Shown: piece after piece, positions 27,007 to 62,036 of the stretch | How the letters are laid out: each line of letters opens with the position of its first letter | Numbering within the stretch: the first letter of the stretch is position 1 | Notes under the pieces: generated by a model | The model's database searches: none | Told to the model about the DNA's origin: nothing | What the model saw: the letters and a program-made list of their open reading frames with translations, nothing else | Source: Candidatus Allofournierella excrementigallinarum | Lineage (GTDB): Bacteria; Bacillota; Clostridia; Oscillospirales; Ruminococcaceae | DNA: 64,000 nt | Assembly (NCBI GenBank): GCA_019119025.1 | Contig: DWXV01000078.1 | Location: forward strand, 52,771 to 116,770 | Direction of reading: 5' to 3' | Made by a program: the position numbers and the translations under genes

Positions 27007-27107
27007 CTCCGGCAGTTAGATTTTGACCGCCCGGCCCTGCCAGCTCCCGGCGGTGTGACCGCGCCTTTTTCAAAAAGGGCGGCGAGCCTAAAATCCTAAG
27101 TTGCTCT
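27007..27107 (-). promoter_or_regulatory. preQ1-III riboswitch before queT
   Basis: On the minus strand the RNA begins GAGCAACTTAGGATTTTAG and GCTC, and ends CGGTCAAAATC, then a stem-closing strand and CCGGAG. This fits what I remember of the Faecalibacterium preQ1-III riboswitch, in which the GAGC/GCTC pairs form P1 and the A-rich strand makes the pseudoknot. The middle has a long hairpin arm. The last GGAG lies nine bases from the queT ATG, so it doubles as the ribosome site and translational control is likely. The identification is from memory of the consensus, not from a covariance search. Confidence 0.85.
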
Positions 27108-32284: not shown

Positions 32285-32905
32285 TCACAAGAATTCGGGC
32301 GGGACGGGCCGGCCATGGTCGTAGGCCAGGCGGTCCTCCCCGCCGATGGGGCGCACCACCCGGCAGGGGCTGCCCACAGCGAGCACGCCCGCCGGGATGT
32401 CCTTTGTGACAAGGCTGCCCGCGCCGATGACGGCGTTCTCCCCGATGGTCACCCCCGGCAGGATGACGCTGCCCGCGCCCACCCACACGCCCGCGCCGAT
32501 GGTGACAGGCTTGTTGTATTGCAGCCCCTTGCGGCGCAGCGCCGGGTGCAGGGGATGGGCGGCCGCCGCGATGGTCACATTGGGGCCGATCATCACATCG
32601 TCGCCGATGTAGATGTGGGTGTCGTCGGTGAGGGTGAGGCCAAAGTTGGCGTAGACGTTTCTGCCCAGGTGGGTAAAGCAGCCCCAGTTGGCGTTAAAGG
32701 GTGCCTCGATGATGCAGCCCTCTCCCACCTCGGCAAAGATGCGGGGCAGCAGGGCGGCGCGGCCGTCCATGTCCCGGGGGTCCATCTGGTTGTACTGCCA
32801 GATGAGCGCCCGGTGCTCCATCTGCAGCCGGAACATCTCCGGCGAGTTGCAGACGTACAAATCGCCCGTGTGCAGCAGCTGCATGTTCTTTTCCAGCTCC
32901 GTCAC
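32285..32905 (-). CDS. Sugar O-acetyltransferase, LacA/Maa type
   Basis: A 206-residue left-handed beta-helix acetyltransferase. It has the N-terminal maltose/galactoside-acetyltransferase region (MQLLHTGDLYVCNSPEM and RALIWQYNQMDPRD) and hexapeptide repeats, with the catalytic His in IAAAAHPLHPALRR and the acetyl-CoA side IGAGVWVGAGSVILPGVTIGENAVIGAGSLV. The start is GTG with GGGGAGG nine bases upstream; a TTG 11 codons earlier overlaps the racemase stop and is less likely. It lies between the racemase and metG on the same strand. Confidence 0.9.
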   Translation of the reverse strand: MTELEKNMQLLHTGDLYVCNSPEMFRLQMEHRALIWQYNQMDPRDMDGRAALLPRIFAEVGEGCIIEAPFNANWGCFTHLGRNVYANFGLTLTDDTHIYIGDDVMIGPNVTIAAAAHPLHPALRRKGLQYNKPVTIGAGVWVGAGSVILPGVTIGENAVIGAGSLVTKDIPAGVLAVGSPCRVVRPIGGEDRLAYDHGRPVPPEFL

Positions 32906-41798: not shown

Positions 41799-41826
41799 TT
41801 GACAACGCCCCGCCTCATGGTATAAT
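41799..41826 (+). promoter_or_regulatory. Promoter of rplJ-rplL
   Basis: TTGACA, 16 bases and TATAAT: a near-consensus sigma-A promoter in front of the L10 leader. Confidence 0.9.
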
Positions 41827-41832
41827 AATAAT

Positions 41833-41966
41833 GCTGTTTTTAAGACAGCAGGTGCTCAATGCATAGCGTAAAGGGCTTTCGCCCGCCTGCCGAGAAACGC
41901 GCATAACACTGTGACTGTGCATGTTTATGCCCTTTTCTCGCCATGGCGGGAAAAGGGCTTTTTTAT
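41833..41966 (+). promoter_or_regulatory. Ribosomal protein L10 leader with attenuator
   Basis: The region between the rplJ promoter and its start has the usual L10-leader layout: a kink-turn-like segment (GTGCTCAATGCATAGCG and GCCGAGAAACGCG), then GCCCTTTTCTCGCC pairing with GGCGGGAAAAGGGC, followed by TTTTTT. L10(L12)4 binds such leaders to shut down its own operon. The terminator hairpin spans 41929-41966. I identify it from layout and remembered consensus. Confidence 0.8.
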
Positions 41967-42010
41967 CGCGAACGAAAGAATGTTATCGCTTGAAACGAGG
42001 TGAAACCGAA

Positions 42011-52861: not shown

Positions 52862-52900
52862 AGCGGCCCCCTCCCGGGTTCCGGGAGGGGGCCGCTCATT
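52862..52900 (-). terminator. Terminator of the SIS-PfkB operon
   Basis: AGCGGCCCCCTCCCGG pairs perfectly with CCGGGAGGGGGCCGCT around GTT. On the minus strand it is followed by GTTTTGTTC; on the plus strand by CATTTTAC. Confidence 0.85.
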
Positions 52901-52938: not shown

Positions 52939-54144
52939 TCACAGCTCCTCCACAAAAACCTGTTCGCTCTTTTTGAAGCGGGCGCAGGCTGCATCCCTTT
53001 CATGCAGCTCACTGGAAATCCCAACGGGCATCTGACGGCGAAAGATTCCAAGATACGCCGCAATGAAGTCCATAGGGATGTGTTGCAGCAGCGCGTTGAT
53101 CCAGCGGTATTTCGGGGTGGGCATTTTAAAAGTCCACGCCTGCTCGGGCAATCCATCGGCAGTATCCTCGCAGATGATGGCCAGTGGCCGCTTGATGGCC
53201 ACCGCGCAGGTGGCCGTCTCCTGATCCCGGGAGAAGGACGGCGAGGATGGATTGGCCATCAGGAAGGTGGCGATGCGGGCCGGGTTACGATTGAAATAAT
53301 TGATATGACACCAGTCTTCGGCGTCATCGTGAGTGGTCACCGCCCCGAATGACTCCACCATCTTGGCGGATGCGAAAAACGCGGTGGCAAATTCCTGGTC
53401 CTCCGCGATGAAGTCCATGCAGTCAAAGCCGTCCGCCTGCAGTTTTTCGGCAAAGCGGAACGCTTTCTCCTCCAAGTCATCAATCACCTCAGGCGTAAAT
53501 GCCCGGGCATATTCAATGGCGGCCTGCCGCTGTTCTTCGGCCTGCTGTTTTGTCATCAACCCTTTGCAGACGCACATGTACAGCCCGAACATCATCACAG
53601 CGTAACAGCCGGCGATGTAGGAGGTCATGCCGGGGCACTCCTCGTCGGTCACGCCGGGCTTGTAATGGTCCTGTGGCACATTGATGCGCACGGCGTACTT
53701 TGCCTCCCGGGCAAAAAGGCTGTTCTCGTTGTCAGTGAACGCCACCGATATGCCGCCCAGCTGGTTGATGCGGGCCAGAGCCTCCCGGGGGCGCACCGGG
53801 CTTCCGGTGATGGAAACCGCGCAGATCAGATGATCCTCCGCCTTTTTTTCGCCCCATCCAACATAGGTGCGGTAATATCGGGCGGCCTCGATGTTTCGGA
53901 GCGCCTCCGCCTGGAATCCCGGATAAGCGCCCTCCGACTCAAAGCAGGGCCGCGCCGCCACGCCAATGCAATAGCTGTCGCCGCAGCCAGTGAGAATCAC
54001 CTTCTGCACCTTTTGCAGCGCCTCGGCAGGCAGGCACTTTTCCAGATAGGAAAAGGTGAATGTCTCCGACATGGACAGCACTGTCTGGGCCGCATTGCGC
54101 ACTTGGGTGAGCAGCGCGTTGTCACAATCACGATGCGTCATCAT
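52939..54144 (-). CDS. SIS-domain protein A, probable sugar-phosphate isomerase or deglycase
   Basis: A 401-residue protein with two SIS domains (about 45-185 and 235-345) and no glutaminase part. The first has ILTGCGDSYCIGVAARP and the phosphate-loop VSITGSP. The second has KMVESFGAVTTHDDAEDWCHINYF: Glu264 and His280 are 16 residues apart, the same spacing as Glu488/His504 of GlmS and Glu214/His230 of the deglycase FraB. The Schiff-base Lys of GlmS is not seen. It is the last gene of the S-component operon, after yjbQ. The ATG at 54144 or the next one at 54141 follows AGGAGG. It is a paralogue of the second SIS gene at 54580. Confidence 0.85.
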   Translation of the reverse strand: MMTHRDCDNALLTQVRNAAQTVLSMSETFTFSYLEKCLPAEALQKVQKVILTGCGDSYCIGVAARPCFESEGAYPGFQAEALRNIEAARYYRTYVGWGEKKAEDHLICAVSITGSPVRPREALARINQLGGISVAFTDNENSLFAREAKYAVRINVPQDHYKPGVTDEECPGMTSYIAGCYAVMMFGLYMCVCKGLMTKQQAEEQRQAAIEYARAFTPEVIDDLEEKAFRFAEKLQADGFDCMDFIAEDQEFATAFFASAKMVESFGAVTTHDDAEDWCHINYFNRNPARIATFLMANPSSPSFSRDQETATCAVAIKRPLAIICEDTADGLPEQAWTFKMPTPKYRWINALLQHIPMDFIAAYLGIFRRQMPVGISSELHERDAACARFKKSEQVFVEEL

Positions 54145-54153
54145 CTCTCCTCC

Positions 54154-54567
54154 TCACTGTTCACCCAGCACCGCCACATTCACCTTACGGTGACGCGGGC
54201 CGTCATATTCCATCATAAAAATACCCAGTTTATCCTTGGAAAGCAGAGTTCCATTTTCAACAATGAGGGTCACGGTATTTCCGAACAGAGCACACTTGAT
54301 GTGTCCGGACGCGTCTTCCGGCGTTTCCTGGTGGATAAAGTTTACCCGCGGAGGAACGAGACGGTCCAGTTCAGCTGCCAGATCCTGCTGCACCTCCGGG
54401 CAGTGGTCTGTGGTGGTCATAATACCCGCGGTGGAATGGCCGATCTCCACGGCGGCGAGCCCATTTTGAATGCCGCTCTCACGGATGGCATCCAGGATTA
54501 TGGCTTTGATGTCGATCCCATCATTACTCTTGGTGGTGACGAGGGGATAGGTCTTTCTGAAATACAT
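54154..54567 (-). CDS. YjbQ (UPF0047) family protein
   Basis: A 137-residue member of the YjbQ family. Landmarks are GLAAVEIGHSTAGIMTTTDHCPEVQQDLAAELDRLVP, the His in ASGHIKCALFGNT, and the C-terminal MMEYDGPRHRKVNVAVLG. E. coli YjbQ has weak thiamine-phosphate synthase activity, but the true substrate of the family is open. The usual LGTWQ in the last third reads LGIFMM here, so this is a divergent member. It lies between the two SIS genes, nine and 12 bases from them. AAGGAGAG precedes the ATG. Confidence 0.85.
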   Translation of the reverse strand: MYFRKTYPLVTTKSNDGIDIKAIILDAIRESGIQNGLAAVEIGHSTAGIMTTTDHCPEVQQDLAAELDRLVPPRVNFIHQETPEDASGHIKCALFGNTVTLIVENGTLLSKDKLGIFMMEYDGPRHRKVNVAVLGEQ

Positions 54568-54579
54568 AAGCTCTCTCCT

Positions 54580-55740
54580 TTATACCATTTCGATCTTGCT
54601 GGAACGGATGCGCACCTCGTCCTCGGTGTTCTCCTGGTGAAAATCCGCCAAATCGCTGCGGAACTGCGGGATCTCCAGCAGCATCTCGATGCCGCCCGCC
54701 ACCATGTCGAAAGCGAAATGCTCCATCAGCGGCGCAAGCCAGAAGTACTCCGGCTTGGGGAAGGTGAATACGGTGCATTCCGGCGGAAACAGTGCGGGGT
54801 CCGCATCAGTCACCACCATGCAGGGGCTCTCCAGCAAACTGATAGCCCGGATGGTCTCCCGGATACGTCCAAAGGAGGGTGACTGCTGGTTTGCAATCAC
54901 CACACGCCCCACGGTGCGGGGGTCCTGGATGAAGAAGTTGATGTGGCACCAGTCTTCCGAATCATCGTATGTAGTGTAGCCACCATAGGTCTCCAGCACC
55001 TTGGCCGAACCGAAAAAAGCGGTGGCATAATCCCCGTAATCACCGATGAAGTCCACCGCGCGCAGGTCTTTCCAGCGCAGCGAGACCTGAAACGCTTTCT
55101 CCCGGTATTCCTTCATTTTTGCCTGGCAGGCCGCGGCGTAGGCGGGGATCGCATCCCGCATGGCAAAGAGTTCTTCTTCGGAGATATTGTTCTTTACTCG
55201 GCCCATCCGCAGGGCCAGGGCCATCAGCGCCACCAGGGAACCGTTGTAGCTGTTGGCCCCGGGACTGTAATCCAGGCCCTTGGGCAGGCCCAAGCACACT
55301 GTGTGTGCTGCGCTGCGGGCCACCGGAGAATCCGGGTCATCGGTGACCGCCAGGGTGTTCGCGCCGTTGATCGCTGCCCGTTTGATCGCTTCTTCCACAC
55401 GGGATACCGTGCCGGTGACTGAGATGCCAATTACCAAAGGCGTGTTAGGGCGGTATCCGAATCTACTTTTTGCCATGCAGCGGCTGACCTCGATGCAGGG
55501 CATTGCTCGCACTTTCACCCGGGTCATCTTTTCAAACAGCGGCTGTGTGGCCACCGCCGCGCAGTAACTGTCGCCGCAGCCGGTGAGGATGATCTCCCGT
55601 GTATTGAAGATCTCCTCCATGCTCAGAGCCTCCCAGCACTCGCCCACATGATCAAAAACTGCCTGGATCACGTCCACCGCGATCATAGCCTGCCTGGCCA
55701 GGCGAGAGTCAAACGCCCGCGCACGAAGTTCATCATTCAT
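54580..55740 (-). CDS. SIS-domain protein B, paralogue of A
   Basis: A 386-residue two-SIS protein. It has ILTGCGDSYCAAVATQP, the loop ISVTGTVSRVEEA, and KVLETYGGYTTYDDSEDWCHINFF with Glu250 and His266 again 16 apart. It aligns with protein A over the whole length, including FATAFFxSAK and FMVANxxSPSF-like stretches. The two may form a hetero-oligomer or handle two substrates. GGAGG lies eight bases upstream of MNDELRAR. It follows the PfkB gene by 15 bases. Confidence 0.85.
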   Translation of the reverse strand: MNDELRARAFDSRLARQAMIAVDVIQAVFDHVGECWEALSMEEIFNTREIILTGCGDSYCAAVATQPLFEKMTRVKVRAMPCIEVSRCMAKSRFGYRPNTPLVIGISVTGTVSRVEEAIKRAAINGANTLAVTDDPDSPVARSAAHTVCLGLPKGLDYSPGANSYNGSLVALMALALRMGRVKNNISEEELFAMRDAIPAYAAACQAKMKEYREKAFQVSLRWKDLRAVDFIGDYGDYATAFFGSAKVLETYGGYTTYDDSEDWCHINFFIQDPRTVGRVVIANQQSPSFGRIRETIRAISLLESPCMVVTDADPALFPPECTVFTFPKPEYFWLAPLMEHFAFDMVAGGIEMLLEIPQFRSDLADFHQENTEDEVRIRSSKIEMV

Positions 55741-55755
55741 TCAGCATGCCTCCTA

Positions 55756-56691
55756 CTAATTCAATTCTTCCTGTTGGAAGTTTGCATCATAATCCCGTGC
55801 AAGGCGCAAACAGCGCTGGCGCGTCTGCAGGTCGATGCGGGGCACCAACCCGACACAACTGGCGTTCAGCGAAGCGGTCACCGCGCCGATCATGGACGCA
55901 TAGCGAGGGCTGTGCCCTTCACACATGGCGTAAAACGCCGCCGCTGTGCTGGAATTTCCGCAGCCCGTGGGGTCTTTGGAGCCAAACACGTCAATCATGG
56001 GGGAATAGTGTGCCTTGTGGCCGGCAATCATATAGGCTCCCTGGGTACCCGCTCGGAAGAAAGAGGGGCAGTTGAGGGCGCACATGTAATCCAGCGCGTC
56101 TTTCAGATCCCGCACACCAGGCACGATGCTCTTGACCTCCTCGCAGGAGAGGGAGAAAAAGTCCACCAAGTAATCGGTGACCTGCCGGATGTATTCCGGC
56201 ATATCGGGGATGCTCTCGTCCGGGTCCATCTCGTACCCCACCAGCAGCCCCTTGGCCCGCTCCGCCTGCAGTTGTTTCAGCAGTTCCGTCAGGTCGGCGC
56301 CGATCAGATGCAGCGCCTTTTCCCCCGCGCCGCGCAGGAACGGTTCCACCAGTTGCCAGTCCGGCAGATCGCCCCCATTCATATAGTTAGGGTCACCCGG
56401 GCCCATGGCATGGGTGCCGTTAGGCAGGTAAAACAGATCCGCCTGGTTTGTGTGCTCGAACCGGGGAATGAACCCGTCCGCGGCTATCCCGTTCTCCACC
56501 AGCCAGTTTCCGTAATACTCCGGAAAATCCCGGCCTGTATAGGCCGCGGCACCGCAGGCATCCGTCCATATCTTTAGACCCGCCACTGCGTACATCACCC
56601 CGCCGCCTAGGCGGATCTCCGGCTCAGTCTGCTTTCCGTGAGGCATCACCCGATCTACCACGACCTGCCCGCAGACCATATACTGACGCAT
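55756..56691 (-). CDS. PfkB-family kinase-like protein with altered catalytic motif
   Basis: A 311-residue ribokinase-fold protein. It has the N-terminal GQVVVDRVMP, the GG of IRLGGGVMYAVAGL, YTGRDFPEYYGNWLVENGI, and a C-terminal DPTGCGNSSTAAAFYAM (residues 240-252). In active PfkB kinases the last GxGD holds the catalytic Asp; here it is Asn246 (codon AAT). Asn also occurs in the Mak32-like branch as I remember it. It may be inactive, slow, or use another base. In the cluster it fits a sugar or sugar-amine kinase role. GGAGGTGGG precedes the ATG. Confidence 0.8.
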   Translation of the reverse strand: MRQYMVCGQVVVDRVMPHGKQTEPEIRLGGGVMYAVAGLKIWTDACGAAAYTGRDFPEYYGNWLVENGIAADGFIPRFEHTNQADLFYLPNGTHAMGPGDPNYMNGGDLPDWQLVEPFLRGAGEKALHLIGADLTELLKQLQAERAKGLLVGYEMDPDESIPDMPEYIRQVTDYLVDFFSLSCEEVKSIVPGVRDLKDALDYMCALNCPSFFRAGTQGAYMIAGHKAHYSPMIDVFGSKDPTGCGNSSTAAAFYAMCEGHSPRYASMIGAVTASLNASCVGLVPRIDLQTRQRCLRLARDYDANFQQEELN

Positions 56692-56711
56692 TTTCCCACC
56701 TCCTTATTGTG

Positions 56712-57626
56712 TTACAGATTCAAAAGCGTCAGGCTCACCACCGTGACCACAATGGCGAGCTTCTGCATCGCGTTGGTTTTTTCCCGGAACAGCAGCATTC
56801 CCGCCAAGGAAACGACCACTAGATTGCCCACGGCATTGGTGGGGAAGTAGATGTTCGCGGGGACCGTCTGCATGGCCATCAGCGCCAGATAGCTGCCCGC
56901 CACGTTTGGCAGTCCCAGGATAACGCCACCCGCAATATCCCGCCAAGAGATTGTGAATCTGGTGCCAGTGCGTATGCAAGTGCGGGCGGTATTCGCCACG
57001 CAAAGCAAAAACGCCGTGGTGAAGATAACGTTCACATACAAGCTATCGAAGCCTTCTATGGTGTAATACACCGCGCATTTTCCATTGATCTCCATCAGGC
57101 CGCCGGTAAGTACAAGTGCGGCCAGTAGCAGCGGTTTTTTAGCACCGCCCGCGTTCTTCAGGCCGCCCGAAGCCAGCAGGATACCGGTAATCGCCAAGAG
57201 GATGCCGATAAACTGTAGCCCAGTGGGGATCTCCTTCCACACGATGGCCGCAGTGAAGGTGGAGATCAGAAAGCCGAACTTGCCGAACAGCGCGGTGAGG
57301 GTGGCCCCGTTGTAAATCACGCTGCTCTTGGTGTTGAAAAGGTCCACGATATAGTAGACTCCCGAAAAGAACCCTACGATCATCAGCAAAAAGCAGGTGT
57401 TTCCGGGCGTTTTTGCGGTCAGTAATGTGGGGATATCGGCGCTCATCAGCCGGGCGGGCAGGCCCGCATACAAACCGGCCTGCCCGCATAATACACCTGA
57501 TACCACTGCCGCAAGCGAATAATTCACCAGGATCAAATTGTCACTGTTCAGCCTGAGCCGGTCCGCCACCTTGAACAGGATCGTCACCAGGCTGGACAGC
57601 AGAACCCCGATTATCAGATAGATCAT
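56712..57626 (-). CDS. DMT-superfamily (EamA-like) transporter
   Basis: A 304-residue membrane protein with ten predicted helices in two repeats, typical of the drug/metabolite transporter superfamily. Landmarks are IYLIIGVLLSSLVTILFKVADRL, TALFGKFGFLISTFTAAIVWKEIPTGLQFIGILLAITGILLASGG, and the second repeat ending ALMAMQTVPANIYFPTNAVGNLVVVSLAGMLLFREKT. It could export a product or import a sugar; no substrate is indicated. AGGTGAACT precedes the ATG. It lies between the S component and the PfkB gene on one transcript. Confidence 0.85.
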   Translation of the reverse strand: MIYLIIGVLLSSLVTILFKVADRLRLNSDNLILVNYSLAAVVSGVLCGQAGLYAGLPARLMSADIPTLLTAKTPGNTCFLLMIVGFFSGVYYIVDLFNTKSSVIYNGATLTALFGKFGFLISTFTAAIVWKEIPTGLQFIGILLAITGILLASGGLKNAGGAKKPLLLAALVLTGGLMEINGKCAVYYTIEGFDSLYVNVIFTTAFLLCVANTARTCIRTGTRFTISWRDIAGGVILGLPNVAGSYLALMAMQTVPANIYFPTNAVGNLVVVSLAGMLLFREKTNAMQKLAIVVTVVSLTLLNL

Positions 57627-57685
57627 AGTTCACCTGTCACCCGTTGGTCGCCTCGTTTTCTGCGGCAAGCGGAAACGCGTTCTTT

Positions 57686-58306
57686 TTACGCCGCGCCGCT
57701 GTTGGCCTGTTCGCTCTTTCTCTTTTTGATAAACCGCTCGCCGTTGGGCAGTTTCACCAGATACCGCACCGGCAACGCCATGATGATCAGGAACGAGAAC
57801 ATGCATGCAATGATTTTGTCCGGCACATCCGAAATCAACCGCACAACGGCAATGGCCAGCAGTTTGGGCATGCCCGCCTCGTACAGAGGAATGCCCAGCA
57901 CCACCGACAGCCATCCGGCATCGAAATCCAGGCCGAAAGCAAGGTAGGTGGTGAGTGCACCGCCCAGGCCGCCGATCACCGAATAGAAAGGCGAGGTGAC
58001 GAGTGCCTTGGCAAAGGAGTCGAAAGCGCCCTTTTTACCCATGAAGCCGGCGATCACGCCAAATACGATGTTCAGCGGCGCGAAAAAGATAGCCGTGGGG
58101 TCGGTTATGCAGTTCACCAGATTGGACAAAAAGCCCACGATTGCGCCCGCCCAGGGTCCGCAGAGGGTACCCACTACGATAGTGCCGATGGAGTCCATGG
58201 AGAGAGGAAGCTTCAGCATGATAGCAAACAGCTGGAAGCCTACCAGATTGACAGCCACGCCGATAGGGATCAAAAACAGTGTCAAACGTTCGATTTTCTT
58301 ACTCAT
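57686..58306 (-). CDS. ECF transporter S component
   Basis: A 206-residue membrane protein with about six helices that matches the substrate-binding S component of energy-coupling factor transporters: LFLIPIGVAVNLVGFQLFAIMLKLPLSMDSIGTIVVGTLCGPWAGAIVGFLSNLVNCITDPTAIFF. It lacks the Trp and other signatures that would mark it as RibU, ThiT, BioY or QueT. The C-terminus is basic. It is the first gene of the operon that holds the DMT protein, PfkB, both SIS proteins and YjbQ, and its ECF partners are encoded on the neighbouring transcript. GGAG lies 11 bases upstream of the ATG. Confidence 0.88.
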   Translation of the reverse strand: MSKKIERLTLFLIPIGVAVNLVGFQLFAIMLKLPLSMDSIGTIVVGTLCGPWAGAIVGFLSNLVNCITDPTAIFFAPLNIVFGVIAGFMGKKGAFDSFAKALVTSPFYSVIGGLGGALTTYLAFGLDFDAGWLSVVLGIPLYEAGMPKLLAIAVVRLISDVPDKIIACMFSFLIIMALPVRYLVKLPNGERFIKKRKSEQANSGAA

Positions 58307-58440
58307 TGCTCTTTTGTCTCCTTTCTCGTACCAATTTCTCAGGGGGAAACAGCGTCGCCCCTCCTCTTATGCCTCAATATTACCAAATTATCCATAAAAT
58401 CTGTGGTTTTTTATATTAATATTTACCAAATTTTGCAGAG

Positions 58441-58454
58441 GTGTAAATTTACAC
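58441..58454. promoter_or_regulatory. Candidate RpiR operator 1, before the S-component operon
   Basis: The perfect palindrome GTGTAAATTTACAC. It overlaps the stop codon of the RpiR gene and lies about 135 bases upstream of the S-component start, in an AT-rich promoter region. Its TTTACA could be the -35 of that promoter, with TAAATA about 16 bases on. The identical 14 bases occur at 61939. Confidence 0.75.
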
Positions 58455-59270
58455 AATTTCGTCGTCCGTGTTCAGATAGGAATTCCAGTAGGTATTGGCA
58501 ATGTAGCGAATCAACAGCATGAGCCCGGTGAGATCCGGCACATTATAGTTTTTAAAATACTTGTCCTCGCTGCTGAACACCAGCGCTTTGTCGGCAATGC
58601 GACGCAGGGTGTTGTCGGTGTCCATGGTGATGGAGATGATAACCGCGCGCTTCTGATGTGCCAACCTGGCCAGGTCGGTGATCCAGGAAGATTCGCCGGT
58701 GCAGCTGATGAAGATGGCCACATCCCCTTCCTTCAGCCGGCTGACACTGTATTCCGAATCCATCAAAATATGAAAGCGCATCTCGATGTTATCGCTGACC
58801 CGGCTGAGATACTTGGCCAGCAGTTCGCAATAGTATTGGCTGTCCCCCATGCCGAACAGGGCTACACGACGGGCGTTGTACACCATGGTCAACACGTCGC
58901 GCAGCATTTTTTTGTCGATCAGGCGCACTGTGCGCAGAATGTGCTTGGACAATTCTGGTTCCAAAAAACGCTTGATCTTTTTGAGTTCTTCCTGCTCCCG
59001 ATCCCCGTGCTGCGCCGCGAGGGAATACTTCAGTTCGGAGAACCCCTTGTAGCCGAGTTTTCGCGCCAGACGTACAACTGTGTTGGGGCAGATATAGAGA
59101 TCCTTCGCGATCTTGTTGATGGATATATCGCTGATGCCTCCGGCGTTCAGCCGCAGGTAATCCACAATATCGTCCTCAACATCGTTGAGTTTCAGCATAT
59201 GCAGCGAGACCCTCTCCTCAAAGGACATGGGTCCGCTGTTTGTCTGTTCGGGGCTTTTTTCCTGTGGCAT
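58449..59270 (-). CDS. RpiR/MurR family transcriptional regulator
   Basis: A 273-residue regulator. The N-terminal HTH is about residues 30-100 (INKIAKDLYICPNTVVRLARKLGYKGFSELKYSLAAQ), and the C-terminal SIS domain (about 125-260; VALFGMGDSQYYCELLAKYLSRV, AIFISCTGESSWITDLARLAHQKRA) binds sugar phosphates in this family. It starts at MPQEKSPEQ with GGGAAGG upstream. It is the last gene of the EcfT-EcfA-EcfA transcript. Family members usually respond to the phosphosugar made by their target pathway, so the effector is probably the PfkB product or the SIS substrate. Confidence 0.92.
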   Translation of the reverse strand: MPQEKSPEQTNSGPMSFEERVSLHMLKLNDVEDDIVDYLRLNAGGISDISINKIAKDLYICPNTVVRLARKLGYKGFSELKYSLAAQHGDREQEELKKIKRFLEPELSKHILRTVRLIDKKMLRDVLTMVYNARRVALFGMGDSQYYCELLAKYLSRVSDNIEMRFHILMDSEYSVSRLKEGDVAIFISCTGESSWITDLARLAHQKRAVIISITMDTDNTLRRIADKALVFSSEDKYFKNYNVPDLTGLMLLIRYIANTYWNSYLNTDDEIV

Positions 59271-59284
59271 AACTGTTCCTTCCC

Positions 59285-60112
59285 TCATTGTTTGTTTCCG
59301 TCGGCCTGGCTGTGGCTGCAGATGAGTTCCACCATTTCGTCGCAGTGGAGTACCCGCTCGTCGTCCCATCCCAGGAGGTGGGCAATCTCCGCGATGCCGG
59401 GGCGGCGGATGCGGCATTCTTCCAGCGCCTGGTCGTTCCAGAACACATCCCGGGCACAGGCGTCCAGCACAACATTTTTGTGGGCCATCGCCACCACCCG
59501 GTCAAAGTTGTCGGCGACAAAATCCATATCGTGGGAGATGGTCACCACCGCGACCCCCTGCCCGGTCATCTCCCCGATGATTTGCCGAAGGATGGCATTG
59601 CCTCGGCTGTCCTGGCCGGCGGTGGGTTCGTCCAGAACGATGTACCGTGGCTGGGTGGCAATGACCGCCGCAATGGTCAGAAACTTGCGCAACGGCAAGG
59701 GGATGTCGTAGGGGTTGGTCTCCCGGTACGCCTCCAGCCCGGTGAGCGCCAGAGCGTGGTCGGTGCGGCGTTTGATCTCCTCCTCGGCGACCTTTGTGCG
59801 TTTGAGCATGTACTGCACCTCGGACACCACGCTTTGGTTAAAGATCTGATCGTCCGGATTCTGGAAAACATAGCCCACAAATTTCGCGATCTGGGCGGTG
59901 GTGCGTTCGCGGGTGTCCACCCCGTCCACCAGCACCCGCCCCTTGGTGGGCTTGTGGATACGGTTCATCAGTTTTACCGCAGTGGTCTTTCCCGCGCCAT
60001 TCTGCCCCACAATGGCGACCTTTTCCCCCTCGCTGATGGTGAGATTGATATCCTCCAATGCAGTGTAACCGTTGGGATAGGTATAATACACGTGTTCAAG
60101 CTGGATCGACAT
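59285..60112 (-). CDS. ECF transporter ATPase with unusual signature motif
   Basis: A 275-residue ABC ATPase. Walker A is GQNGAGKTT (36-44), the Q-loop FQNPDDQIF is typical of EcfA, and Walker B is YIVLDEPT (157-164). The signature LSGGQ is replaced by IPLPLRK (about 137-143); I recall a subfamily of EcfA-like proteins with PLxLRK at this place. Its partner has a normal signature, so one of the two ATP sites is likely degenerate. It is 15 bases downstream of the second ATPase. Confidence 0.9.
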   Translation of the reverse strand: MSIQLEHVYYTYPNGYTALEDINLTISEGEKVAIVGQNGAGKTTAVKLMNRIHKPTKGRVLVDGVDTRERTTAQIAKFVGYVFQNPDDQIFNQSVVSEVQYMLKRTKVAEEEIKRRTDHALALTGLEAYRETNPYDIPLPLRKFLTIAAVIATQPRYIVLDEPTAGQDSRGNAILRQIIGEMTGQGVAVVTISHDMDFVADNFDRVVAMAHKNVVLDACARDVFWNDQALEECRIRRPGIAEIAHLLGWDDERVLHCDEMVELICSHSQADGNKQ

Positions 60113-60127
60113 ATGAGCAACCCTCCT

Positions 60128-60976
60128 TCACAGTCCGCGCACAAGGGCGGCGGCCTCGCTGTTGGTAATCGGGATCCGGGGCAAGGCACAGCCTGCCGCC
60201 CGCAACGCATGGCCAAGCCGGGCCGCCGCCGGGACGGGTGCGCCCCATTCCTGCAGGCGGGGATCGGAAAGCACCGTGCTGGTATCGCCCTTCATGGCGA
60301 TGCGGCCATCCTTCATCACGATGACCTCGTCGCAGTATTCCGCAATCAGGTCGATTTTATGCTCTACCAGAATGATGGTCTTGTCCCGCCCTTTCAGCAG
60401 CTGGATGATTTCAAACACGTCCTCCGTGCCCTCCGGATCCAGCTGGCTGGTGGGCTCGTCAATGACCATCACGTCTGCGTCCATGGCGATGATGGAAGCG
60501 AAGGCCACCCTCTGGCATTGGCCGCCGGACAGCTCCAACGGGTTTTTGTCCAGCAGGTTTTCGATGTGCAGCGCGCGGCACACCTCCACGATTCGCCGCA
60601 TCATTTCCTCCCGCGGAATGCCCAGGTTCTCCAACCCGACACCCACCTCTTCGAACACAGTCTCACGAATGCCGCTCATCTGCACAAAGGGGTTCTGAAA
60701 CACAAACCCGATTTCCACGGCCAGCTTCTGGTCATCGATTGTGCGCACATCCTGTCCGTCGATCAACGCCTCACCCTCCAGCGTCCCCAGGTAAAAATGA
60801 GGGCACAGGCCCCGGATCAGATTGCACAGCGTTGTTTTTCCCGCGGCATTTTCGCCAATCACACCGTAAAATTTGCCCCGTTCGAGTACAAGGTCGAGGT
60901 GATCCAGCGCCGGATGATCGGAAAGCGGATACGTATAACGGACATCCGTCATCTTCACAAATTCTGTGCCTGCCAT
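60128..60976 (-). CDS. ECF transporter ATPase with canonical signature
   Basis: A 282-residue ABC ATPase with Walker A GENAAGKTT (41-49), Q-loop FQNPFVQMSG, signature LSGGQCQR (149-156), Walker B VMVIDEPT, and a switch His in LVEHKIDL. Together with the ATPase at 59285 it should form the motor of the ECF transporter. The C-terminal 50 residues (from WGAPVPAAARLGHAL) are an extension beyond the ATPase core, common in EcfA proteins. It is 15 bases after EcfT; GGAGAG lies upstream of the ATG. Confidence 0.93.
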   Translation of the reverse strand: MAGTEFVKMTDVRYTYPLSDHPALDHLDLVLERGKFYGVIGENAAGKTTLCNLIRGLCPHFYLGTLEGEALIDGQDVRTIDDQKLAVEIGFVFQNPFVQMSGIRETVFEEVGVGLENLGIPREEMMRRIVEVCRALHIENLLDKNPLELSGGQCQRVAFASIIAMDADVMVIDEPTSQLDPEGTEDVFEIIQLLKGRDKTIILVEHKIDLIAEYCDEVIVMKDGRIAMKGDTSTVLSDPRLQEWGAPVPAAARLGHALRAAGCALPRIPITNSEAAALVRGL

Positions 60977-60991
60977 ATCAAATCTCTCCTC

Positions 60992-61801
60992 TCACATGAT
61001 GCCCGTGATCTTAGCATAGATAGCCCAGGCCATTCCCAGCACACACGCAACGTCCACAAAGGCCACGAACACCTTTTCCCAAACCGGGACCGGGCGGAAA
61101 AGGCGCAAATAGGTGTGGCCCTTTTCATTCGCAAACGCGCGGGATTCCATGGAAATGCATTTTTCCTCCGTGTAGGAGATCGCACCCAGCACCATGGGGC
61201 TGATGGTGGGAAAGGCCGATTTAAAGCGCACCCACAGGTTTCCTTCCGTCTCGATGCCTCTCGCCTTCTGGCTCTCCAGAATAGTGCGCATGTTGTTAGT
61301 GAGCTCCGTGATGGTTTTGAAGGATACAAGTACGATATAGGAAGTGGAAGGCTTGACCCAGCCTTTTTGCTCCAGTGCCAGCATAATGTCGCGCATCGGC
61401 GTGGTGAGGAACAAAAGAAACAGCGCCCCGGAGAATCCCAGCAAAAACGCGGACATATCCAACCCGTTCTCCAGTGCTGCGTCGGTTACCGAAAACCCAA
61501 ACACCTGGAACAGCGAATCACCCTCGTTGCGATGGATAAAAACGCGGGTGACCGTCATAAACACGCCGAGAAACACCACGCACACCGAGAACATTTTGAT
61601 GAACGAGCGGAAAATGCCCAGGTATGCCGCCAGCAGAAGATAGGCTGCGATGGCCGCCGCGCCGAATCGCCAGTCCTTAAAAACCATTGCCGTAACTCCA
61701 ATCACAAGCCAAACATTTATTTTGTTGAGAGGATTCAGATCCTTCAGCCAGTTCCCGTAAAGTTGGTAACCCTGGTATTTTTTCACAATGTCTTCTGTCA
61801 T
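60992..61801 (-). CDS. ECF transporter transmembrane (T) component
   Basis: A 269-residue membrane protein of the EcfT/CbiQ family with about six helices. It has the coupling-helix pattern ESQKARGIETEG and a second one near ESRAFANEKGHTY, which contact the ATPases. It starts at MTEDIVKKYQ: GGAG lies nine bases before that ATG, while the ATG three codons earlier is too close to it. It is the first gene of the EcfT-EcfA-EcfA-RpiR transcript. The region ahead holds operator 2. Confidence 0.88.
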   Translation of the reverse strand: MTEDIVKKYQGYQLYGNWLKDLNPLNKINVWLVIGVTAMVFKDWRFGAAAIAAYLLLAAYLGIFRSFIKMFSVCVVFLGVFMTVTRVFIHRNEGDSLFQVFGFSVTDAALENGLDMSAFLLGFSGALFLLFLTTPMRDIMLALEQKGWVKPSTSYIVLVSFKTITELTNNMRTILESQKARGIETEGNLWVRFKSAFPTISPMVLGAISYTEEKCISMESRAFANEKGHTYLRLFRPVPVWEKVFVAFVDVACVLGMAWAIYAKITGIM

Positions 61802-61931
61802 TCCATTCATCTCCTTGTTGTCTTGGCTGGGTATGAAAGTGGATTTGGGTGGATTTTTCCTCCTTATATTGTCAAATATATACATATTTTTTCTAAATTT
61901 GTATATTTTATTATTAATATCGATTCAAACT

Positions 61932-61959
61932 ATGGGATGTGTAAATTTACACATCCCAT
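61932..61959. promoter_or_regulatory. Candidate RpiR operator 2, before EcfT
   Basis: A perfect 28-base palindrome with the core GTGTAAATTTACAC (61939-61952), flanked by ATGGGAT and its complement. It lies about 130 bases upstream of EcfT in AT-rich sequence. It shares the exact 14-base core with 58441. Confidence 0.78.
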
Positions 61960-61978
61960 TTTCTGGAAAGATACAAAA

Positions 61979-62022
61979 AAGCACCGACCCGTCAGAAGAT
62001 TCGAGCGGGTCGGTGCTTTTTT
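61979..62022. terminator. Bidirectional terminator between gpmI and the ECF operon
   Basis: GCACCGACCCG pairs perfectly with CGGGTCGGTGC around a 14-base loop, with AAAAAA before and TTTTTT after. It ends gpmI on the minus strand. Confidence 0.9.
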
Positions 62023-62036
62023 GATTTACAGGTTTC

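Follow-up and report, generated by a model that had tools for sequence, protein, structure and literature searches.

Several described systems bear comparison with the gene cluster reported here. In Group I energy-coupling factor (ECF) importers, the membrane scaffold EcfT, two EcfA ATPases and an S component of their own are encoded in one cluster. The frl and fra operons bring together an importer, a protein of PfkB fold and a protein of SIS fold that carries a Glu/His pair. PnrA has a role with nucleosides, and in some operons a Bmp/PnrA-type ABC importer is accompanied by an IU nucleoside hydrolase (IUNH). Features recalling these systems are found in a 64,000-nucleotide stretch of contig DWXV01000078.1 from Candidatus Allofournierella excrementigallinarum (the window), where ten genes form a head-to-tail array on the minus strand, from 61885 down to 52939. 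In order they encode EcfT, two EcfA proteins, an RpiR-type regulator, the S component EcfS, a DMT permease, a PfkB-fold protein, SIS1, a YjbQ protein and SIS2 (Table 1). The reading we favour, and to which we give about even weight, is that the island comprises an ECF importer for nucleosides (N-ribosides), an RpiR regulator with two predicted operators and a set of four proteins, PfkB-fold, SIS1, YjbQ and SIS2, that would degrade the riboside after its uptake.

The genes were assigned from the list of open reading frames and from Pfam and NCBIfam scans. Every protein named in a preliminary description of this DNA is present on the minus strand, although the count of nine genes given there becomes ten. 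The genes are separated by gaps of -4 to 59 nt, the sole exception being the 142 nt between the RpiR and EcfS genes. The families PF02361, PF00005 (twice) and PF12822 are encoded together and all exceed their cut-offs, as for a Group I ECF importer. More specific models are less closely matched: the best NCBIfam hit of the first EcfA is ECF_ATPase_1 (214 bits, under its cut-off of 315), and that of the second is ECF_ATPase_2 (196 bits, under 330). The regulator matches both HTH_6 (57.3 bits, cut-off 28.3) and SIS (44.6 bits, cut-off 25). A homologue of the DMT permease (148 bits) also adjoins a gene for the same type of PfkB-fold protein in locus L063.

The substrate class is suggested by the relatives of EcfS. 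In contrast to the S components of described Group I systems, EcfS exceeds the cut-off of no specificity model in the NCBIfam scan, and its relatives lie beside nucleoside enzymes. The best named match is to the CD3073 family (NF045596), at 76.3 bits, far under the cut-off of 180. A search with this model in 299 genomes of the phylum returned matches in 27. Many of the below-cut-off relatives are found in operons of EcfS, EcfT and two EcfA genes with a PNP-family gene, an IUNH gene or both, and sometimes a PfkB gene (labels by similarity). A PNP-family or IUNH gene lies within 5 kb of 9 of the 15 below-cut-off relatives tested. Among the remaining 94 PF12822 S components of these genomes there is a single such case (Fisher 1e-8; 2/94 at 8 kb). 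Unlike these relatives, none of the six over-cut-off CD3073 members tested has a nucleoside enzyme nearby at either distance. This test, designed after the neighbours of the relatives had been viewed, covered 20 genomes and took, besides the S component of the window, 15 of 19 below-cut-off and 6 of 11 over-cut-off matches; the below-cut-off matches left out are three in G333 and one in G863, and a few weak IUNH matches in G808, G753, G733, G800 and G763 are not counted.

In the phylogenetic tree, EcfS of the window joins sequences from G680, G808 and G832 with support of 92/85, as a long branch. Together they belong to a ten-member group (84/82) in which six of the nine other members are linked to nucleoside genes. 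Taken together, the family memberships and neighbours make it likely that the importer takes up a nucleoside or another N-riboside. No nucleoside ECF transporter was found in the open-access literature searched by titles and abstract openings, and the same library yielded nothing on CD3073. A 2017 paper there deals with YhhQ and preQ0 transport.

Vitamins are the most familiar substrates of ECF importers, and model TIGR00149, which YjbQ matches, is named secondary thiamine-phosphate synthase; the cluster might accordingly salvage parts of thiamine or another cofactor precursor. We hold this to be very improbable, given the nucleoside context of the EcfS relatives and the absence of any vitamin S model over its cut-off (the folate-family model reaches 29.5 bits, cut-off 60). 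Nor does the window contain a riboswitch for thiamine pyrophosphate or another vitamin at the Rfam gathering score, the only Rfam matches at that score being a PreQ1-III riboswitch (27007-27106, minus strand, 70.2 bits) and an L10 leader (41821-41973, plus strand, 50.4 bits), both distant from the cluster.

The enzymatic part of the cluster recurs elsewhere. Relatives of SIS1 were found at 19 loci in named genomes, and there are strong matches (E <= 1e-30) in 10 of 247 genomes of the family; the weaker matches in these genomes are mostly of GlmS length. After removal of seven duplicates (L060, L061, L065, L066, L067, L070 and L074), 45 other module loci were annotated, and the core extends across Oscillospiraceae, Erysipelotrichaceae and an Avilachnospira. 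Within the clade defined by the window SIS proteins, the usual order is PfkB-fold, SIS1, YjbQ, SIS2 and a second YjbQ; elsewhere, the genes are arranged less uniformly and their ancestry is more mixed. Of the 45 loci, 17 have a gene for a Bmp-type binding protein, an IUNH or a PNP within -7/+6 kb; the window clade accounts for 11 (of 19) and the other loci for 6 (of 26). Around the core of the Erysipelotrichaceae lie genes for an ABC importer of Bmp type, a TrpF-like barrel (PRAI), an IUNH and an ordinary PfkB (assigned by Pfam in L017 and by similarity in the others), and L009 has a PNP gene nearby. BtpA barrels adjoin further copies. The same core is attached to the Bmp/PnrA-type importer and hydrolase arrangement in Erysipelotrichaceae and Avilachnospira, whereas in the window it is joined to an ECF importer and has no hydrolase. 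The open-access library searched yielded no paper that links SIS domains to nucleoside hydrolase and PfkB, or to BtpA and nucleoside, and none on Neobittarella and nucleoside.

The two SIS proteins of the window are 31% identical. Each retains a Glu/His pair known from GlmS-type isomerases, Glu250/His266 in SIS1 and Glu264/His280 in SIS2 (20/20 sequences in both cases), with the spacing seen in human GFAT; by analogy, these residues may serve as general acid and base. Asp57 and Arg114 are likewise invariant in the SIS1 group (20/20). SIS1 differs from GlmS and GFAT in comprising the SIS part alone, with no glutaminase domain, and it scores 57 bits against the GlmS cut-off of 418. In phylogenetic trees, SIS1 and SIS2 of the window group form two separate clades (both 100/100), each containing the same 20 loci and a pair from L083, a locus with three SIS genes. 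The two trees branch similarly and show the same nearest partners (the window with L008, L009 with L011, and the Erysipelotrichaceae with one another), a pattern that fits a pair inherited jointly after a single duplication.

These observations bear on the preliminary description, which proposed an Amadori-product or amino-sugar pathway in which the ECF importer takes up a glycated amine, the PfkB protein phosphorylates it and the SIS proteins act as deglycases. The SIS fold with its Glu/His pair agrees with this proposal, and SIS1 does match the FrlB and FraB folds. In the fold search, however, both are outranked by structures of GlmS, of AgaS type and by the best of NagB-II, although rank alone shows no function. 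The FrlB model scores 20.2 bits on SIS1 against a cut-off of 430 and is not among the matches listed for SIS2. With the relatives neighboured by nucleoside genes, the glycated-amine substrate has the weaker support and we regard it as improbable. The cluster differs further from frl and fra in its two longer, GlmS-type SIS paralogues inherited together, in YjbQ, in ECF import and in the altered PfkB motif described below, which itself argues against such a pathway.

At E 0.001 neither Pfam nor NCBIfam gives a match for the PfkB-fold protein, and its assignment follows from the predicted model (pLDDT 90.3), which matches structures of the ribokinase family, together with a profile match to solved kinases. 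At the position where kinases carry GAGD it has DPTGCGN (residues 240-246), such that the catalytic Asp is replaced by Asn. The kinase of the preliminary description is retained as a fold, but with its usual catalytic residue exchanged, and we refer to the protein as PfkB-N. The Asn is present in all 16 aligned sequences, that of the window included, in contrast to the five solved kinases shown for comparison, all with GAGD. The Asp is also found in ribokinase-family nucleoside kinases and in TM0415, a pyrophosphate-dependent inositol kinase. Among 38 proteins labelled PfkB or PfkB-N once the duplicate loci are set aside, 35 have GCGN; the three exceptions are weak matches (L076 at 41 bits and L094 at 34 bits, both GAGD, and L083 at 26 bits, GCGD). 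Ordinary PfkB proteins encoded in operons of the core have GAGD in 8 of 8 cases. Tandem arrays of five PfkB-N genes occur at L071:13892-18714, where all have GCGN, and at L164:169-5111, where they are labelled by similarity.

The first and second YjbQ copies of the modules (L009-L025 and the window) are unequally conserved: the first varies far more, with 11 near-invariant positions in 17 sequences, and the second has 47 in 14. The window keeps the first copy only, with histidines at 44, 55, 79, 89 and 126. A double-length YjbQ of 272 residues at L071:9072-9890 appears, by length and similarity, to consist of two fused YjbQ domains.

A pathway can be proposed from these parts. EcfS would bind the riboside, which EcfT and the two ATPases would import, the substrate being suggested by the neighbours of related S components. 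PfkB-N would then hold the ribosyl part and perhaps phosphorylate it by an altered chemistry. A mixed pair of SIS1 and SIS2 might open and isomerise the ribosyl group of a ribosyl amine in an Amadori-like, aldose-ketose conversion, freeing the base or amine from the pentose, and YjbQ may take part in the same ribosyl chemistry. A ribosyl amine is suggested for the SIS pair because of its fold and Glu/His residues and because TrpF-like and BtpA barrels neighbour other copies. As neither the cluster nor the genome encodes a nucleoside hydrolase, either the module itself would cleave the riboside or three PNP-family genes of the genome would do so. The bolder form of the proposal, which we think has perhaps one chance in a few of being right, is that the core splits the ribosyl-nitrogen bond of ECF-imported N-ribosides by Amadori-type isomerisation and not by hydrolysis or phosphorolysis, and that it exists as many paralogous copies with exchangeable importers in bacteria with 21-57 nucleoside-hydrolase genes.

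Should household phosphorylases instead take off the base, the PfkB-N, SIS and YjbQ set would handle the released sugar, an unusual pentose, or the phosphate of that pentose. Sugar phosphates are the usual substrates of SIS proteins, and the three PNP-family genes of the window genome could supply the first step. The Erysipelotrichaceae core is accompanied by a nucleoside hydrolase and a GAGD PfkB, implying that other enzymes would remove the base there. On the other hand, plain ribose would not need such a set, the cluster contains no other pentose enzyme, and chemistry on a ribosyl amine is hinted at by the barrels of TrpF-like and BtpA type that neighbour some copies. We consider this explanation rather unlikely, if the most serious of the alternatives to a riboside-cleaving module.

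Regulation of the cluster is suggested by GTGTAAATTTACAC, a perfect 14-base palindrome that occurs twice in the window and not again within two mismatches (0.04 expected). One copy precedes each transcription unit, and that upstream of EcfT is the core of a longer perfect palindrome, ATGGGATGTGTAAATTTACACATCCCAT. The preliminary description spoke of a regulon without noting these sites, which give the term substance. At both sites a -35-like TTTACA lies within the palindrome; since a promoter scan overall found 6 candidates against 4.7 expected, such hexamers prove nothing by themselves. It is likely that RpiR represses both units through these predicted operators. RpiR bound across the -35 regions would keep the units off, and would be released by a sugar-phosphate-like intermediate. 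Near the other module loci (L008-L026 and L062-L092; up to two mismatches) there are two loose matches to the motif, at 15890 in L017, directly after an IUNH gene, and at 15656 in L087, neither of which precedes a module.

The presence of the DMT permease here, and of MATE-type transporters near some other copies, could mean that the module synthesises a compound and exports the product. Importers are nonetheless commoner beside the core (ECF here, and Bmp-type ABC at 9 of 19 loci of the window SIS clade), and an RpiR regulator usually accompanies catabolism. Synthesis and export seem to us as improbable as vitamin salvage.

At the level of whole genomes, the ten with SIS modules contain 57, 43, 35, 34, 22, 21, 9, 5, 0 and 0 IUNH genes. 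In the family sample, six of the ten have at least 20 IUNH candidates, compared with none of the 237 others, where family-wide numbers are first-look candidates with about nine per genome scored (nearly all in 30 genomes) and both searches are assumed to cover the same 247 genomes, on the strength of equal number and matching handles. The six expansions (in G116, G169, G050, G043, G095 and G017, in descending order) are often tandem and fall in six genera of the family. SIS clusters lie near PfkB-N genes in 18 of 33 cases (1.5 expected), and some PfkB-N arrays share operons with IUNH genes. Several PfkB-N genes are found with three IUNH genes, a TrpF-like barrel and an ordinary PfkB at L158:1829-12315, and with four IUNH genes at L169:2564-11424.

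Several observations weigh against the import and breakdown of ribosides by this island. The core PfkB-SIS1-YjbQ-SIS2 recurs, but not with its importer: EcfS or EcfT is labelled in none of the 45 other module loci within the -7/+6 kb surveyed. The window cluster has no PNP or IUNH among its ten genes, and its genome has no IUNH and just the three PNP-family genes, all outside the cluster. EcfS of the window, on its long branch, is 36% identical to its nearest relative and falls in no starred set of the tree, and the nucleoside-linked S components of G870, G733 and G272 lie outside its group. Neither set of loci is independent, as 4 of the 15 S-component relatives come from one genus (g393) and 7 of the 11 linked module loci in the window clade are from Erysipelotrichaceae; the Bmp-type binding proteins at these loci, moreover, may not be nucleoside-specific. 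The genome-level association is also imperfect, as G140 and G000 have the module and no IUNH, while in G101, G242 and G232, with 9-10 IUNH candidates each, a strong SIS module is missing. In IUNH-rich Oscillospiraceae genomes, none of 33 SIS clusters lies within 5 kb of an IUNH gene among the matches listed (2.5 expected), although one unlisted IUNH adjoins L077. PfkB-N clusters are weakly associated with IUNH (8/48 versus 3.9 expected, p 0.037), and not significantly at 3 or 8 kb.

The cluster appears to be an addition to its site. In the same-genus relative L175 (G221) the gpmI-GNAT junction is continuous, the equivalents of window positions 52895 and 62025 being joined with 7 bases between them, and the 9.1-kb island is absent. 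In relatives L172-L174 these flanks enclose about 0.7 kb of unrelated DNA in place of the cluster, and the gpmI-GNAT site is possibly an insertion hot spot. This stretch contains an open reading frame that is acetyltransferase-like by eye, and a 132-base segment of it matches window positions 32327-32458 at 71-73%. The PfkB-fold gene, searched alone, was not found in the four other genomes of the genus, and the G+C content is 56.1% in the cluster versus 63.6% in the window. Given the empty site, the presence of this gene in one of five genomes and the compositional gap, it is likely that the set arrived as one piece by lateral acquisition. A PfkB-fold protein 97% identical to that of the window is recorded under Candidatus Allofournierella merdipullorum, and the PfkB-N relatives P0122 and P0123 stand at 81% and 78%.

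Table 1. Features of the island and its edges in the window
Feature	Position	Strand	Length (aa)	Basis or remark
Inverted repeat with T-run after gpmI	61974-62023	-		Terminator-like; upstream island edge
28-base perfect palindrome ATGGGATGTGTAAATTTACACATCCCAT	61932-61959			Upstream of EcfT; core GTGTAAATTTACAC at 61939-61952; predicted RpiR operator
EcfT, ECF importer membrane scaffold	60992-61885	-	297	PF02361 77.7 bits (cut-off 25)
EcfA, first ATPase	60128-60976	-	282	PF00005 88.6 bits
EcfA, second ATPase	59285-60112	-	275	PF00005 91.1 bits
RpiR-type regulator	58449-59288	-	279 as scanned	HTH_6 and SIS; start approximate
Second GTGTAAATTTACAC palindrome	58441-58454			Upstream of EcfS; predicted RpiR operator
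EcfS, dedicated substrate-binding component	57686-58306	-	206	PF12822 37.0 bits (cut-off 30.7)
DMT/EamA-type permease	56712-57626	-	304	EamA 26.2 bits, slightly below cut-off 28.2
PfkB-fold protein, PfkB-N	55756-56691	-	311	Predicted model; profile match to solved kinases
SIS1, GlmS-isomerase-type protein	54580-55740	-	386	
YjbQ/UPF0047 protein	54154-54567	-	137	PF01894 91.5 bits (cut-off 27); TIGR00149 97.8 bits (cut-off 67.75)
SIS2, diverged SIS1 paralogue	52939-54144	-	401	PF01380 29.5 bits (cut-off 25)
Bidirectional hairpin	52862-52896			Terminator-like; downstream island edge; aligned with relative L175

With the reading favoured here, in which ribosides are imported and broken down, nucleosides become a substrate class that can be tested for an orphan group of ECF S components. 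YjbQ, a family that is poorly understood, becomes tied to recurrent operon partners, and a PfkB-fold family is marked out by its replaced catalytic Asp. The spread of the core, together with nucleoside-hydrolase genes that number up to 57 in a single genome, suggests that such bacteria have a hidden economy of ribosides.

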